Assembly (NCBI GenBank): GCA_003159675.1
Contig: PLQC01000040.1
Span: 1 to 34,084 of the forward strand
Direction of reading: 5' to 3'
Source of the DNA: Limisphaerales bacterium
GTDB taxonomy: Bacteria; Verrucomicrobiota; Verrucomicrobiia; Limisphaerales; BOG-1460
Length of the DNA stretch: 34,084 nucleotides
Shown here piece by piece: positions 12,698 through 18,326 of this stretch. Position 1 is the stretch's first letter, and each line of letters opens with the position of its first letter. The notes beneath the pieces were generated by a model. The model saw only the letters and a list, made by a program, of their open reading frames with translations, made no database searches and was not told where the DNA came from. Both the position numbers and the translations under genes were made by a program.

Positions 12698-13432
12698 CTA
12701 CTTGAGTCCCAGCACGTCCTGCATGTCGTACAGCCCCGGTTTCTGTTTCACGATCCATTGGGCGGCGCGCAAGGCGCCGTTGGCGAAGGTCTCGCGGCTG
12801 GATGCCTTGTGCGTCAGTTCAAGCCGTTCGCCGACGTTCGCGAACATCACAGTGTGGTCGCCCACCACGTCGCCCCCGCGAACGGAATGGATGCCGATCT
12901 CTGTGCCGGTCCGCTCGCCCACGATGCCGACGCGACCATGGCGCGCCACTTTCTCGATCTGCTGCTTCCGGACTTCGGCGAGGATTTCCGCCAGTGTTTT
13001 GGCGGTGCCGCTCGGGGCGTCCTTCTTGAGCCGGTGATGCATCTCCACGATTTCCAGGTCAAAACCCGGCCCCAGGATTTCCGCGGCCTTGCGCGTCAGC
13101 CAGAAGAGCGCATTGACGCCGGTGGAATAGTTCGAAGACCAAACCATAGGGATTTGAGATTTGAGATTTAAGATTTGAGATTTTTCGGCGTCGGTGTGGC
13201 CCGTGGTGCCGATGACCGCGGCCTTGCGATGAGTTGCGCAGAGTTCCACGATGCCGGGAGTGGCATGGGGAGAACTGAAGTCGATGACCACATCCCCGCG
13301 GTCGATGACGGACCGCAGGTCTTCGCCCTGGTCGATCTGGGCGGCGACCTCCACCCCGGGATTTCGCGCAGCGCAGGCGAGCAAGGCCTGCCCCATGCGG
13401 CCCTTCGAGCCGGTGATGATGATTCTGGTCAT
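12698..13432 (-). CDS. dapB: 4-hydroxy-tetrahydrodipicolinate reductase DapB
   Basis: DapB reduces the product of DapA with NAD(P)H in the diaminopimelate/lysine pathway. The 244-residue protein starts MTRIIITGSKGRMGQAL, the dinucleotide-binding fold. It contains VVIDFSSP, AAVIGTTGHT, the catalytic MHHRLKKDAPSGTAKTL with paired His and Lys, and NYSTGVNALFWL. Residues 84-94 read KSQILNLKSQI, a 7-residue repeat encoded by a 7-bp tandem DNA array (13151-13185). Spacing between GTTG and N-x-S-x-GVN equals that in E. coli DapB, so the array replaces a helix rather than lengthening the protein. The start lies 9 bp after the upstream small gene, with no strong ribosome binding site, suggesting coupled translation. 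Confidence 0.96.
   Translation of the reverse strand: MTRIIITGSKGRMGQALLACAARNPGVEVAAQIDQGEDLRSVIDRGDVVIDFSSPHATPGIVELCATHRKAAVIGTTGHTDAEKSQILNLKSQIPMVWSSNYSTGVNALFWLTRKAAEILGPGFDLEIVEMHHRLKKDAPSGTAKTLAEILAEVRKQQIEKVARHGRVGIVGERTGTEIGIHSVRGGDVVGDHTVMFANVGERLELTHKASSRETFANGALRAAQWIVKQKPGLYDMQDVLGLK
13151..13185. repeat. 7-bp tandem array (GATTTGA)n inside dapB
   Basis: Five consecutive units are seen on the plus strand: GATTTGA, GATTTGA, GATTTAA, GATTTGA and a degenerate GATTTTT. Three units equal 21 bp, so the array stays in frame and encodes KSQILNL-KSQI in DapB. The stretch is AT-rich in an otherwise GC-rich gene. Confidence 0.9.
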
Positions 13433-13441
13433 GATTAGAAA

Positions 13442-13699
13442 TCAGGGGGCGTTTCGTTTCAGATACTCCCTGCAAAGCGATCTCACTTTGCAGCAGAAGA
13501 TTGAAAAGCCAAGTTGGGGGTAGGCGGGCACCACTTTCTGCTCAAAGATTTCACGAATCCTGTCTTCAAATCTGGACTCGGCTTCCTTCGCAGATGTCGA
13601 GATCGGATCGAAAGCGAACTCGAATTTGTCGAAGAGGTCAGCCAGCTCGGCTAATTCAGCTTTGGTAATAGCCCCTTCGGAAACTCCATCTTCTGACAT
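13442..13699 (-). CDS. Hypothetical small acidic protein (second gene of overlapping pair)
   Basis: An 85-residue protein I do not recognise. It starts MSEDGVSEGAITKAELAEL and is acidic and probably helical in its first 55 residues (ELADLFDKFEFAF, RFEDRIREIFEQKV). It ends in a Cys-containing basic tail. The start at ATG 13699 is well supported: GGAGGAGG lies 4 nt upstream at 13704-13711, inside the coding sequence of the preceding gene, which this gene overlaps by 49 bp. This implies co-expression of the two proteins. Base composition is lower in GC than the surrounding dap genes. A paired regulatory or toxin-antitoxin function is possible but not shown. Confidence 0.7.
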   Translation of the reverse strand: MSEDGVSEGAITKAELAELADLFDKFEFAFDPISTSAKEAESRFEDRIREIFEQKVVPAYPQLGFSIFCCKVRSLCREYLKRNAP

Positions 13700-14079
13700 G
13701 TCGCCTCCTCCATGACGCCTTTGTATCGCTTGTCAGCCGCCAGCTTGTAGTCCAAAATCAAATCGTACAATTGAGGTGTGCCGCAATAGGCATATTTGTG
13801 CTTAAGGTCCGCCAGGATTCGCAGGGCAGACTGGCAAAAGCGACTCATTCTGTTCCAAACATCGGAAACTTCATCCAGGTCGTCCGCCTTTTTGGCCAAG
13901 GCGGCGGCGACTCCATACGTCTGGACCACAATTCCTTCGACCAGTCTGACCTGACGCGTGAAAGCCTCACAAGCTCCGGGGGCCGCGGCATCCGGATAAG
14001 AGTTCCCGATGCGCTGCATCTCGTTGATCTGCGGTTGGCTGACTTCCAGAATATCGCTAAAATTAAGGCATGCTTTCAT
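13651..14079 (-). CDS. Hypothetical protein (first gene of overlapping pair)
   Basis: A 142-residue protein of unknown function, predicted to be mainly helical and without membrane segments. The start at ATG 14079 (MKACLNFSDILEVSQ) follows a GGTGG motif; an in-frame extension to 14121 is possible. The middle, AFTRQVRLVEGIVVQTYGV...DVWNRMSRFCQSALRILADLK, reads as amphipathic helices like those of small four-helix-bundle proteins, some of which (for example the four-helix 'S23'-type proteins) are known to sit in odd genomic places. I see no catalytic motif. It overlaps the next gene by 49 bp, and the pair interrupts dapA and dapB. Confidence 0.65.
   Translation of the reverse strand: MKACLNFSDILEVSQPQINEMQRIGNSYPDAAAPGACEAFTRQVRLVEGIVVQTYGVAAALAKKADDLDEVSDVWNRMSRFCQSALRILADLKHKYAYCGTPQLYDLILDYKLAADKRYKGVMEEATCQKMEFPKGLLPKLN
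13704..13711 (-). promoter_or_regulatory. Strong ribosome binding site inside upstream gene
   Basis: GGAGGAGG on the minus strand sits 4 nt before ATG 13699 and within the 3' coding part of the 142-residue gene. It fixes the start of the 85-residue gene and indicates translational coupling. Confidence 0.75.
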
Positions 14080-14170
14080 AACCACCGGACGGAACCTAGT
14101 TGAAAAATGCCTTTCTTGCAAGACTGATTGCAGACTAACTCATGCTGATTGCAGGCCAATTCCACGGTTG

Positions 14171-15052
14171 TCACGACTTGATCAGACCCCACCTTTTCAG
14201 GGACGCCCGCAACGTCTTCCGGTTCTTCGCGCTCATCGGCACCAGCGGAAGGCGGTATTCCTCTTCCACCAACCCCATCATGGCCAGCGCGGCCTTGACA
14301 GGAACCGGATTGCTTTCGATGAACAGGTCCTTGAACAGGGGAAAAAGTTTCGCATGCAGGCGGAGCGCCTGTCCGGCGTGTCCCGCCGCGAACGCCCGGA
14401 CCATCCGGGCCACTTCGCGCGGCACAACGTTCGAGGCGACGCTGATGACGCCATCGGCGCCCACCGCCAGGAAGGGCAACGTCAGCGAATCATCCCCGCT
14501 CAAGATCTCGAAACGCGGTCCGAGCGCGGCGCGGAGCTGGCTGACCCGGTCGCAACTGCCGCCGGCCTCCTTGATGCCGATGATGTTCCGGCATGCGCGG
14601 GCGAGCCGCCGGACGGTGTCCACTCCGATCTCGACGCCACAACGCCCCGGGATGCTGTAAAGCACGATGGGCAGTTTCGTTTGCCGCGCGATGTCGCGGA
14701 AGTGTTGGAACAACCCCTCCTGAGACGGCTTGTTGTAATACGGCGCCACCTGCAGCGAGCCATCCACACCCAGTTTCGCCGCCTCCTGTGTCAAATAGAC
14801 GGCCTCCGCGGTCGAGTTCGCGCCGGTGCCAGCCAACACCTTGACCCTGCCGCCGGCGAATTCCACCGCCAACTCGATGACGCGCAGATGTTCTTCATAA
14901 TCGACCGTCGGCGATTCGCCGGTCGTGCCCACGGGCACGATCCCGTCCACACCACCCCTGATTTGAAGCCGAATCAGGCGATCGAGCGCGGGTCCGTCGA
15001 TTCTTCCGTTTTTGAACGGGGTAACAATTGCAGTATAGGTTCCAGTAAACAT
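14171..15052 (-). CDS. dapA: 4-hydroxy-tetrahydrodipicolinate synthase DapA
   Basis: DapA condenses pyruvate with aspartate semialdehyde, the branch-point step to diaminopimelate and lysine. The 293-residue protein begins MFTGTYTAIVTPFKNGRID. It has the pyruvate-binding VGTTGESPTV, then APYYNKPSQEGLFQHF, Tyr132 in IVLYSIPGRCG and the Schiff-base lysine Lys161 in IIGIKEAGGS. These match the class I aldolase pattern of authentic DapA rather than the related NanA or KDG aldolases. ATG 15052 is chosen over an in-frame extension to 15133, which would add unusual basic residues. dapF lies upstream on the same strand, with a 253-bp gap containing a GC-rich hairpin at 15147-15164. Confidence 0.96.
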   Translation of the reverse strand: MFTGTYTAIVTPFKNGRIDGPALDRLIRLQIRGGVDGIVPVGTTGESPTVDYEEHLRVIELAVEFAGGRVKVLAGTGANSTAEAVYLTQEAAKLGVDGSLQVAPYYNKPSQEGLFQHFRDIARQTKLPIVLYSIPGRCGVEIGVDTVRRLARACRNIIGIKEAGGSCDRVSQLRAALGPRFEILSGDDSLTLPFLAVGADGVISVASNVVPREVARMVRAFAAGHAGQALRLHAKLFPLFKDLFIESNPVPVKAALAMMGLVEEEYRLPLVPMSAKNRKTLRASLKRWGLIKS

Positions 15053-15305: not shown

Positions 15306-16166
15306 TCAGCCGGGACCCTGGCTCCGGATCGCTTCGGAAAACATCTCGTCAGCGATCACGCCTTCCGCGACCTTCGTCACCGGCCCGGTCATCACTATGT
15401 CGAAGTCCGGCCCGATTTCGATGGCGAGTTTTCCGCCGGGCATGTGAACGGTGATCGATCGGTCGCAGAGGCCGAGCTTGTGGGCCACCGCCGCGGCCGC
15501 GCTGCTGCTGCTGCCGGATGCCAGCGTATAACCCGCGCCGCGCTCCCAGATTTCGATCTGGATATTCCGCCGGTCGAGCACTTTCAGGAATTGCACGTTC
15601 GTCCGGTTCGGAAACGCCGGATGCACCTCGATCAGTGGACCGAGTTGCTTCGCCACCCCGGCCGTGGTCGCCAGCAGCACGACGCAATGGGGGTTGCCGA
15701 CCGTCGCGGCGCAATACGCGAACGTTTTGCCATCGACCTGAATCTGCTCGTTGAGGACCTCGCGTCGCGGGCCCGCGACGGGGATTTTGTCGCTCCAGAA
15801 GCTGACCCGGCCCATTTCAACGCGGACATTGTGGCCGCCGTCCAGAACGGCGGACTTCACCACGCCCCCGGTCGTTTCAATGGCGAACACGTCGCCGCCC
15901 ACGAGCTTCCGGTCCCACAACCAGCGCGAAAAAATCCTCAACCCATTGCCGCTCTTTTCCGCTTCACTGCCGTCGGGATTGAAAATGCGCAGCGCGAAGG
16001 GCGCCTGCCGCGAGGGCAGCGGGCCCAGCAGGATCCCGTCCGAGCCGACGCCGAAATTTCGATGGCAAATCAATTTGACTTGATCGGTCGTCAGCGGCAC
16101 GGGTAATTCCTTCGGATCCAGGACCAGGTAATCATTCCCGAGCGCGTGGTATTTCCAGAATTTCAT
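15306..16166 (-). CDS. dapF: Diaminopimelate epimerase-family protein lacking both catalytic cysteines
   Basis: By family and context this is DapF, which interconverts LL- and meso-diaminopimelate without PLP using two cysteines. Length, 286 residues, is normal. Substrate-binding motifs are kept: HALGNDYLVLD, FNPDGSEAE, GNPHC, NRTNVQF and ERGAG. The two catalytic motifs are changed. Family CGNGxRC reads SGNGLRI, with Ser72 encoded AGC. Family ACGSGxCA reads ASGSSSSA, with Ser217 encoded TCC. The two positions correspond to Cys73 and Cys217 of the Haemophilus enzyme. It may be an epimerase working with serines, an enzyme with altered chemistry, or a non-catalytic relative. The start is ATG 16166. 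It is divergent from the cyclase gene across 45 bp. Confidence 0.88.
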   Translation of the reverse strand: MKFWKYHALGNDYLVLDPKELPVPLTTDQVKLICHRNFGVGSDGILLGPLPSRQAPFALRIFNPDGSEAEKSGNGLRIFSRWLWDRKLVGGDVFAIETTGGVVKSAVLDGGHNVRVEMGRVSFWSDKIPVAGPRREVLNEQIQVDGKTFAYCAATVGNPHCVVLLATTAGVAKQLGPLIEVHPAFPNRTNVQFLKVLDRRNIQIEIWERGAGYTLASGSSSSAAAAVAHKLGLCDRSITVHMPGGKLAIEIGPDFDIVMTGPVTKVAEGVIADEMFSEAIRSQGPG

Positions 16167-16211: not shown

Positions 16212-18326
16212 ATGGCGGAGCAATTATCTCTTTACAGCGCGGAACGGGATTCGCAGAGTATGAGCGTGTCAGCGACTTTCGATGAGAATCGTTTGGAAGG
16301 CCAGCCGCGACAGCAACAATACGGGTTTCGACCCCATTCCGACCTGGCAACCGCGATCCTGCGCGCGCAGGAGCATCTCTTCTCGATCCAGAAGCCGGAA
16401 GGTTACTGGGTCGGGGAGTTGATGGTGGATTCCACGCTGGTTTCCGATATGCTCGCCTACCATTACTGGGACGGAAAAGTCGATCCGGCCTGGCAGCGCA
16501 AGGCCGTTCATCAGATTTTCTCGATGCAACTGCAGGACGGCGGCTGGAACATCTATTATGGAGGTCCGTCAGAGGTGAACGCCACGATCAAGGCGTATCT
16601 TGCCTTGAAGCTTGCCGGGGTGCCGGTCACGGATTGGCGGATGTTGCGCGCGCGCGAGGTGGCGCTGAATCTGGGCGGCATCCCGCGGATGAACACGTTT
16701 TCCAAGCTCTATCTGGCGCTCCTGGGCCTGTTTCCGTGGGAATACCTGCCGACGATCCCCTGCGAGGTGTTGCTGCTGGGAAAATGGTTTCATGTGAATT
16801 TCTGGGACATGAGCAACTGGTCGCGGGCCATGCTGGTGCCGCTTGCGATCATCAATCATTTCAAACCCACGCGGCCGCCCAAGAACGGCGTCACTATCGA
16901 TGAACTTTATCCGCAGGGTTTCCACGAGCGAGATCTGGCGCTGGCGCCCGACCCGGATCGCCTTTCGTGGCGCAACTTTTTCCTGTGGCTCGATCGCCTC
17001 CACAAATTTGCCGAGTGGTTCGCCGAAAGCGGCATCCACCCGTTCCGCAGACGCGCGCTCAGGAAGGCCGAGCAATGGATGCTCGAACGCTTCGAGGGAT
17101 CGGACGGCCTGGCCGCCATTTTCCCGGCCATGCTCAATTCATTGATCGCGCTCAAGGCGCTCGGCTATCCCGACGATCATCCGCAGGTCGTCCGCGCCGC
17201 GCTCGAATTGAAGAAGTTGCAGCATGAAACCAAGGACAGCGTGCGCATCGAGCCCTGCTTTTCACCCGTCTGGGACTCGGCCATCGTGGCGATCTGCCTC
17301 CAGGAATCGGGGATTCCCGCCGACCATCCCGCGCTCCGGAAATGCGGGGACTGGCTGGTAAATCGGGAAATCCGAATCCGCGGCGACTGGCAGCATAAAA
17401 ACCCGGCGAAAGTCGAGCCGAGCGGCTGGGTGTTCGAGTTCAACAACCAGTGGAACCCGGACGTGGACGACACCGCGATGGTGCTGCTCGCGCTGCGGAA
17501 AATCCCGACCCGCGATCCGCAGAAGCGGGACGAGTGTTTCCGGCGCGCGTTGAACTGGATGATGACCTTCCAGTGCAAGGACGGCGGGTGGGCGTCGTTC
17601 GACAAGGATTGCACCAAGAACATCCTGGAAAAGGTTCCGTTCGCCGACCACAACGCCATGCTCGACCCGGAGTGCGCGGACATCACGGCCCGCATCCTCG
17701 AGCTGCTCGGCTACGAAGGCTGGAAGACGGATCACCCGCAGGTCAAGGAGGCGCTCGAGTTCATCCGCACCCACCAGGAGGCCGACGGCTCGTGGTACGG
17801 ACGCTGGGGCGTCAATTACATTTATGGCACCTGGCAGGTGCTGCGGGGCTTGCGCGCGCTTGGCATCGACATGAACCAGCCCTGGCTCCTCAAGGCCCGT
17901 GACTGGCTCGAAAGCGTCCAGCACGAGGACGGCGGCTGGGGCGAACGCTGCAACACCTACGATGATCCCGTGTTCAAAGGCCAGGGCCCCAGCACCGCAT
18001 CCCAATCCGCCTGGGCCATCATGGGCTTGTGCGCTTTTGACGACCCGAATCGACCGAGTCTGCAGCGCGGCATCGATTATCTCGTCCGCACCCAAAACCC
18101 GGATGGTTCCTGGACCGAACCCGAAACCACCGGCACCGGTTTTCCCAGAGTCTATTATCTCAAGTACGACATCTACCGGAACAGTTGGCCGCTGCTGGCC
18201 ATGGCAACTTACCGCAACATTCTGAGGAAAACCGCCGGGCGGAATGGCGAAGTCAACAGTCACACGCTGCCTGCCGCCCACCCTTCCGCCACCACGACCG
18301 CCTCGTCGGCGGGTGGCCCTGCCTGA
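16212..18326 (+). CDS. shc: Squalene-hopene cyclase
   Basis: SHC cyclises squalene to hopene/hopanol at the inner membrane, giving bacterial hopanoids that stiffen membranes. The 704-residue protein carries the protonating motif DVDDTAM (residues 417-423) and several QW repeats: QLQDGGWNIYYGG, QCKDGGWASFD, QEADGSWYGRWG, QHEDGGWGE and QNPDGSWTE. The DxDD motif separates it from oxidosqualene cyclases, which use DCTAE. The start ATG 16212 has AAGGTG upstream. After residue about 670 there is a nonconserved tail rich in Ser, Thr and Ala, possibly unstructured. No other hopanoid genes are adjacent. It is divergent from dapF with only 45 bp between starts, so the promoters must be closely packed. 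Confidence 0.95.
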   Translation: MAEQLSLYSAERDSQSMSVSATFDENRLEGQPRQQQYGFRPHSDLATAILRAQEHLFSIQKPEGYWVGELMVDSTLVSDMLAYHYWDGKVDPAWQRKAVHQIFSMQLQDGGWNIYYGGPSEVNATIKAYLALKLAGVPVTDWRMLRAREVALNLGGIPRMNTFSKLYLALLGLFPWEYLPTIPCEVLLLGKWFHVNFWDMSNWSRAMLVPLAIINHFKPTRPPKNGVTIDELYPQGFHERDLALAPDPDRLSWRNFFLWLDRLHKFAEWFAESGIHPFRRRALRKAEQWMLERFEGSDGLAAIFPAMLNSLIALKALGYPDDHPQVVRAALELKKLQHETKDSVRIEPCFSPVWDSAIVAICLQESGIPADHPALRKCGDWLVNREIRIRGDWQHKNPAKVEPSGWVFEFNNQWNPDVDDTAMVLLALRKIPTRDPQKRDECFRRALNWMMTFQCKDGGWASFDKDCTKNILEKVPFADHNAMLDPECADITARILELLGYEGWKTDHPQVKEALEFIRTHQEADGSWYGRWGVNYIYGTWQVLRGLRALGIDMNQPWLLKARDWLESVQHEDGGWGERCNTYDDPVFKGQGPSTASQSAWAIMGLCAFDDPNRPSLQRGIDYLVRTQNPDGSWTEPETTGTGFPRVYYLKYDIYRNSWPLLAMATYRNILRKTAGRNGEVNSHTLPAAHPSATTTASSAGGPA

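Follow-up and report, generated by a model that had tools for sequence, protein, structure and literature searches.

A DapF-type protein with serine at both catalytic cysteine positions represents a multi-phylum clade of candidate serine-based diaminopimelate epimerases

The window analysed here, a stretch of 34,084 nucleotides from a Limisphaerales metagenome-assembled genome (MAG), carries a dapF-type gene whose product has serine at the two positions that are held by catalytic cysteines in known diaminopimelate (DAP) epimerases. We consider it probable, with a chance of roughly two in three, that this gene encodes a working DAP epimerase in which the cysteine acid/base pair was replaced once by a pair of serines, together with co-adapted neighbouring residues. 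The evidence comes from the fixation of the two serines across a large clade, from the conservation of the residues that contact DAP and from the metabolic need of the host genomes for DAP epimerisation. That the protein is catalytically active, which residue serves as its base and whether the adjacent Lys71 takes part are inferred from these data.

Results

The gene and its neighbourhood

The features needed for what follows are these, all on the minus strand of the window:

15306..16166, minus strand: dapF-type gene with a Ser/Ser active site, 286 aa; matches TIGR00652 and PF01678 (in two stretches); AlphaFold2 model
15951..15953, minus strand: AGC codon of Ser72, at the position of the first catalytic Cys by alignment
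15954..15956, minus strand: AAG codon of Lys71, invariant in the Ser clade
15516..15518, minus strand: TCC codon of Ser217, at the position of the second catalytic Cys by alignment
14171..15052, minus strand: dapA (4-hydroxy-tetrahydrodipicolinate synthase), 293 aa, ATG at 15052; PF00701, E=4.7e-99
12698..13432, minus strand: dapB (4-hydroxy-tetrahydrodipicolinate reductase), 244 aa; TIGR00036, 253 bits; DapB_N and DapB_C domains

The dapF-type reading frame, whose product we call P0001, begins with an ATG at 16166 and runs down to 15306, and is followed downstream on the same strand by dapA (15052-14171), dapB (13432-12698) and folK. A preliminary description of this DNA had placed the gene in a dapF-dapA-dapB cluster, and the profile matches to dapA and dapB agree with it. 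About 740 bases separate dapA from dapB (13433-14170), compared with roughly 40-280 in five syntenic relatives (L003, L004, L006, L012 and L013); this gap is probably a small insertion, and it holds a 156-aa minus-strand reading frame (13651-14121) that has no Pfam match. On the other side, dapF adjoins a divergent squalene-hopene cyclase gene (16212-18326), which is followed by pyrK/pyrD (to 20278). Among 80 related loci, 15 have the cyclase gene close to dapF and 19 have pyrD there, a recurrent neighbourhood (for example in L004, L006 and L012). A search of the window with Rfam revealed neither a lysine riboswitch nor a member of any other Rfam family.

Two serines in a DapF fold

Residue 72 is a serine within KSGNG (SEAEKSGNGLRIF) and residue 217 is a serine within ASGSSSS (RGAGYTLASGSSSSAAA). 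When P0001 was aligned with HMMER to solved DapF structures, these residues fell opposite the catalytic Cys75 and Cys224 of the Anabaena enzyme (9mro) and opposite positions 73 and 217 of Haemophilus DapF; the Haemophilus chain used (2q9h) comes from the engineered mutant C73S, which itself has serine at 73. The codons and the structural alignments thus bear out the earlier reading of serine at both catalytic positions, and the motifs then described as intact (GNPHC, NRTNVQF and ERGAG) are all present.

In other respects P0001 resembles DapF closely. It scores 236 bits against the NCBIfam DapF profile TIGR00652 (cut-off 114.65), covering profile positions 1-269 of 270, and 194 bits against PF01678. 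The AlphaFold2 model (mean pLDDT 92.4) has the DapF fold; its best match in the PDB is the cyanobacterial DAP epimerase 9MRO, with a TM-score of 0.90, and its top 26 matches are DapF-fold epimerases or racemases. Helices begin in the model at residues 73 and 218, and each serine caps one of the two central helices, as the cysteines do.

In the complex of Anabaena DapF with aziDAP, the inhibitor is contacted by Asn13, Asn66, Gly76, Asn77, Asn164, Asn197, Glu215, Arg216, Gly225 and Thr226 (PMC12039745). These residues align to N11, N63, G73, N74, N158, N190, E208, R209, G218 and S219 of P0001, positions at which conservation within the Ser clade is 99-100%. Apart from the two cysteines and the change of Thr226 to Ser219, no ligand-touching residue differs from the Anabaena enzyme. 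Around this conserved framework the clade carries residues of its own. Lys71 is invariant, whereas Cys-type DapF usually has methionine here (47 of 51) and never lysine; the equivalent position in Anabaena DapF belongs to the loop that curves round the substrate (PMC12039745). Ser219-Ser220 replaces the Thr-Gly of Cys-type DapF, and other fixed clade-specific changes are I78 for Cys, Q192 for Glu/Asn, E205 for Arg, and Tyr213.

Score, fold, DAP-contacting residues and genome context therefore all fit DapF, and the defining cysteine pair does not. We therefore do not class the gene as a canonical DapF but place it in a separate Ser/Ser variant clade of the family, whose different active site goes unnoticed when annotation relies on sequence score.

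Fixation and a single origin

The preliminary description had proposed an alignment of homologues, and had held that cysteine in close relatives would speak for a sequencing error or a local mutation. The 80 best homologues in a set of bacteria with one genome per species (64-80% identity) all read KSGNG and ASGSS; their hosts are Verrucomicrobiota, Nostocales cyanobacteria, delta-type MAGs, a Planctomycetota MAG and others. In a wider set the pair was Ser/Ser in 110 of 110, with cysteine (0/110) or threonine at neither site. These counts rule out a sequencing error or a recent mutation. No Ser/Cys or Cys/Ser intermediate was present among the motifs read. The Cys-type DapF proteins of the same phyla have MCGNG (or MCGNA) and ACGTG, and are only about 28-40% identical.

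The serine codons are themselves informative. At site 72 there are 92 AGY and 18 TCN codons, and at site 217 there are 45 AGY and 65 TCN (n=110 in each case). With both serine codon boxes in use at both sites, a reassignment of serine codons to cysteine is unlikely. Pairwise dN/dS by the NG86 method has a median of 0.085 and a maximum of 0.23 (244 pairs), and these values, together with the invariant substrate residues, rule out a pseudogene or relaxed constraint. In a tree of 94 rows the Ser clade occupies one side of a single branch (SH-aLRT 100, stem length 1.18), with one change on the tree. The Ser/Ser swap is the fixed mark of a large clade that spans several phyla and is under purifying selection.

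Distribution across genomes

The Ser type occurs in 29 of 145 Verrucomicrobiota genomes that are at least 90% complete, at a match identity of 56-100%, while most of the others have a Cys-like type of less than 40% identity; we read the motifs of the Ser types and of a sample of the remainder. The window's genome and 26 of the 28 other Ser-type Verrucomicrobiota sampled have no DapF besides the Ser type; a second DapF was found in only two of the 29 (G160 and G189). The phylum of the delta-type MAG G046 has the Ser type in 3 of 99 genomes, in two of them as the sole copy. Two further genomes, G019 and G029, carry the Ser type alongside a canonical Cys/Cys DapF.

The situation in cyanobacteria is distinct. 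Few of them have the Ser type (2 of 79 genomes), and every one of 12 Ser-bearing cyanobacteria also has a Cys/Cys copy, a pattern that suggests horizontal acquisition. The contexts of the cyanobacterial Ser-type genes vary, and no shared operon among them provides a clue to function. Calothrix PCC 7716 has in addition a truncated N-terminal Ser-type copy of 114 aa (L120:3472-3810, also L073:4423-4761), about 1.2 kb upstream of its full Ser-type gene. Dulcicalothrix has three DapF genes in one genome: a Cys type, a closer Ser type and a second, divergent Ser/Ser form (L119:4565-5386) that is 52% identical to P0001.

The need for DAP epimerisation

DapL makes LL-DAP, and LysA decarboxylates meso-DAP. 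The window's genome, a MAG that is 96.7% complete, has DapA and DapB as well as DapL (564 bits) and LysA (464 bits), the last two above their cut-offs, and Ddh (DAP dehydrogenase) was not found in it. With DapL and LysA present and Ddh absent, an LL-DAP epimerase is required. The earlier suggestion that the genome be searched for a second dapF or for ddh gave neither: queries with P0001 and with PF01678 yielded no second DapF. A canonical dapF elsewhere in this genome, beside which the present copy might have been a relaxed duplicate, is therefore rejected by protein and Pfam searches, as far as a MAG of this completeness allows. A bypass through Ddh, absent here, would apply to few relatives, since Ddh occurs in only 3 of the 29 Ser-type Verrucomicrobiota.

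The same reasoning extends beyond the window. Ten Verrucomicrobiota, the window's genome included, have a Ser-type protein as their sole DapF, DapL and LysA above cut-off, and no Ddh, and the logic applies equally to the delta-type MAG G046. The missing second DapF and Ddh are absences from incomplete assemblies, but a lone Ser-type DapF without Ddh is also the pattern of some single-contig genomes, among them G188, G136 and G170. Eight Ser-type Verrucomicrobiota (G150, G128, G176, G087, G096, G179, G049 and G156) have no DapL above the cut-off, and one of these, G128, has Ddh.

MurE points to a use for meso-DAP in the cell wall: of 20 Ser-type genomes searched, 19 have it, and each of the 20 loci read carries the DAP-type DNPR motif. 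MurE was not found in the window's own MAG, probably due to incompleteness or fragmentation. DAP is present in Lacunisphaera and Opitutus terrae, and DL-DAP went undetected by TLC in Ser-type Verrucomicrobiota, which was ascribed to low amounts (PMC5303756). The Lacunisphaera and Opitutus MAGs that we examined have a single DapF, of the Ser type.

Discussion

A serine-based DAP epimerase and its alternatives

The preliminary description had left three options: a serine-based epimerase, a different reaction or a non-catalytic binding role. Fixation, purifying selection, the intact DAP contacts and the lack of a second DapF or of Ddh favour the serine-based epimerase. On the favoured reading, LL-DAP from DapL would be converted to meso-DAP for LysA and, in relatives, for peptidoglycan by way of MurE. 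Like the cysteines, Ser72 and Ser217 would each stand at the N-terminus of a central helix and face the substrate alpha-carbon from opposite sides. One serine would take the alpha-proton; the helix dipole, the desolvated closed site and possibly the adjacent, invariant Lys71 would activate this serine, while the one on the opposite face would deliver a proton. We also expect, a little less confidently than we do epimerase activity as such, that this single-origin branch inverts stereochemistry at an unactivated alpha-carbon through two serine hydroxyls (possibly aided by the lysine), that a large group of Verrucomicrobiota has no DAP epimerase but this one and that it would be insensitive to thiol reagents and to the disulfide switch known from Cys-type DapF.

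Several considerations weigh against this proposal. A serine hydroxyl, with a pKa near 16, is a poor base. The non-detection of DL-DAP by TLC and the lack of a MurE hit in the window's own MAG also count against it. Cys-to-Ser mutants of PddB retain less than 0.1% activity (PMC8225329), and those of HisR are greatly reduced (PMC11602996). Since engineered mutants of this kind are almost inactive, a natural Ser/Ser form must depend on co-adapted residues. We found no Ser/Ser enzyme of the DapF fold with a measured epimerase activity, and no description of a natural Ser/Ser DapF in the open-access PMC papers that we searched. In cyanobacteria, where a canonical DapF always stands alongside, the Ser type could do something else, and it is possible that meso-DAP comes from an unrelated, unrecognised epimerase.

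This last thought leads to the alternative that we take most seriously, unlikely as it seems: that the protein is a neofunctionalised DapF homologue, which binds DAP or an analogue and carries out a different reaction (another racemisation, an elimination or the formation of D-glutamate), meso-DAP being supplied by an unrecognised enzyme. Proteins of the DapF fold do switch substrate, as HisR illustrates (PMC11602996), and the structural matches to the P0001 model include O-ureidoserine racemase (7vdy). Ser/Thr pairs in the proline racemase superfamily go with dehydration (PMC4113996), and the coexistence of Ser-type and canonical proteins in the cyanobacteria and in G019 and G029 also speaks for this alternative. 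Against this, the contacts to the distal amino acid moiety that make DAP the substrate are all conserved, the gene clusters with dapA and dapB in the window and in near relatives, and in the Ser-only genomes that have DapL and LysA but not Ddh we found no other known source of meso-DAP. The formation of D-glutamate draws some support from MurI (TIGR00067), which is found neither in the window's genome nor in 20 others of the 29 Ser-type Verrucomicrobiota; however, several Ser-only genomes do have MurI and would be left unexplained, so that substitution for glutamate racemase is unlikely as the sole role.

The loss of the two residues on which the known mechanism depends might also signify a dead pseudo-enzyme with a binding or regulatory function. 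E. coli DapF is reported to have a non-catalytic role in binding RppH (PMC4227774), and P0001 might be a partner of this sort. We regard this as very unlikely, because the substrate contacts and both serines are invariant despite switching between AGY and TCN codons, there are genomes that require meso-DAP and have no other DapF, and a pure binder would not need serine at both sites in 110 of 110 cases. The least probable of the alternatives is a Ser/Ser epimerase with a one-base or cofactor-dependent mechanism, in which the real base comes from an additional group, either Lys71 or a cofactor (PLP, for instance). The restriction of the invariant Lys71 to the Ser clade and its place in the substrate loop would suit such a scheme, as would the PLP-dependent glutamate racemase side activity of chlamydial DapF (PMC5885031), but that side activity belongs to a Cys/Cys enzyme.

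Implications

Bacteria with a Ser-type DapF may not respond to inhibitors of the enzyme that are directed at thiols, aziDAP among them. The DapF of C. glutamicum is reversibly inactivated by disulfide formation (PMC5296763), and Ser/Ser enzymes should escape inactivation of this type.

The wider interest is mechanistic. The two-cysteine mechanism is taken as definitive for cofactor-independent racemases of the DapF fold, with Cys-to-Ser mutants serving as near-dead controls, and it is a long-standing question how a weak base removes an alpha-proton with a pKa of about 29. A clade with a fixed Ser/Ser pair, which in many genomes is the sole candidate for DAP epimerase, makes this question directly testable and raises another, namely which changes around the site let serine work, and at what cost.

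Comparison with known systems

Along its full length P0001 is homologous to the cofactor-independent DapF enzymes (Anabaena 9MRO, Haemophilus 1GQZ/2GKE, TIGR00652), at about 36-39% identity, and it has in common with them the fold, every residue that contacts DAP, the dapA/dapB neighbourhood and the position in the pathway. It differs from them in the Ser/Ser pair, in Lys71 for Met, GSSS for GTG(A/T), Glu205 for Arg and Gln192 for Glu/Asn, and in other fixed residues. The C73S and C217S mutants of Haemophilus DapF (PDB 2Q9H and 2Q9J) have the same fold and a serine in place of one or the other cysteine, but these are single laboratory mutants of a Cys-type enzyme, whereas in the Ser clade both serines are natural, fixed and accompanied by other changes. 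The chlamydial bifunctional DapF (NF038284) is, like the Ser type, found in the PVC superphylum in hosts that often have no MurI; it keeps both cysteines, however, and P0001 scores only 61.5 bits against the NF038284 cut-off of 350.

A catalytic serine in a related fold has a precedent in the proline racemase superfamily, where a 4-hydroxyproline epimerase works with a Ser/Cys pair, and where in this enzyme and in the Ser/Thr 3-hydroxyproline dehydratase a working serine replaces the first catalytic cysteine (PMC4113996). The Agrobacterium vitis members of this superfamily (4LB0 and 4K7G) are among the fold matches of the P0001 model. These enzymes nevertheless belong to another family with other substrates, at about 15-17% identity; the epimerase keeps one cysteine, and the serine is positioned by an asparagine at +3, where P0001 has glycine (Ser72-Gly-Asn-Gly).
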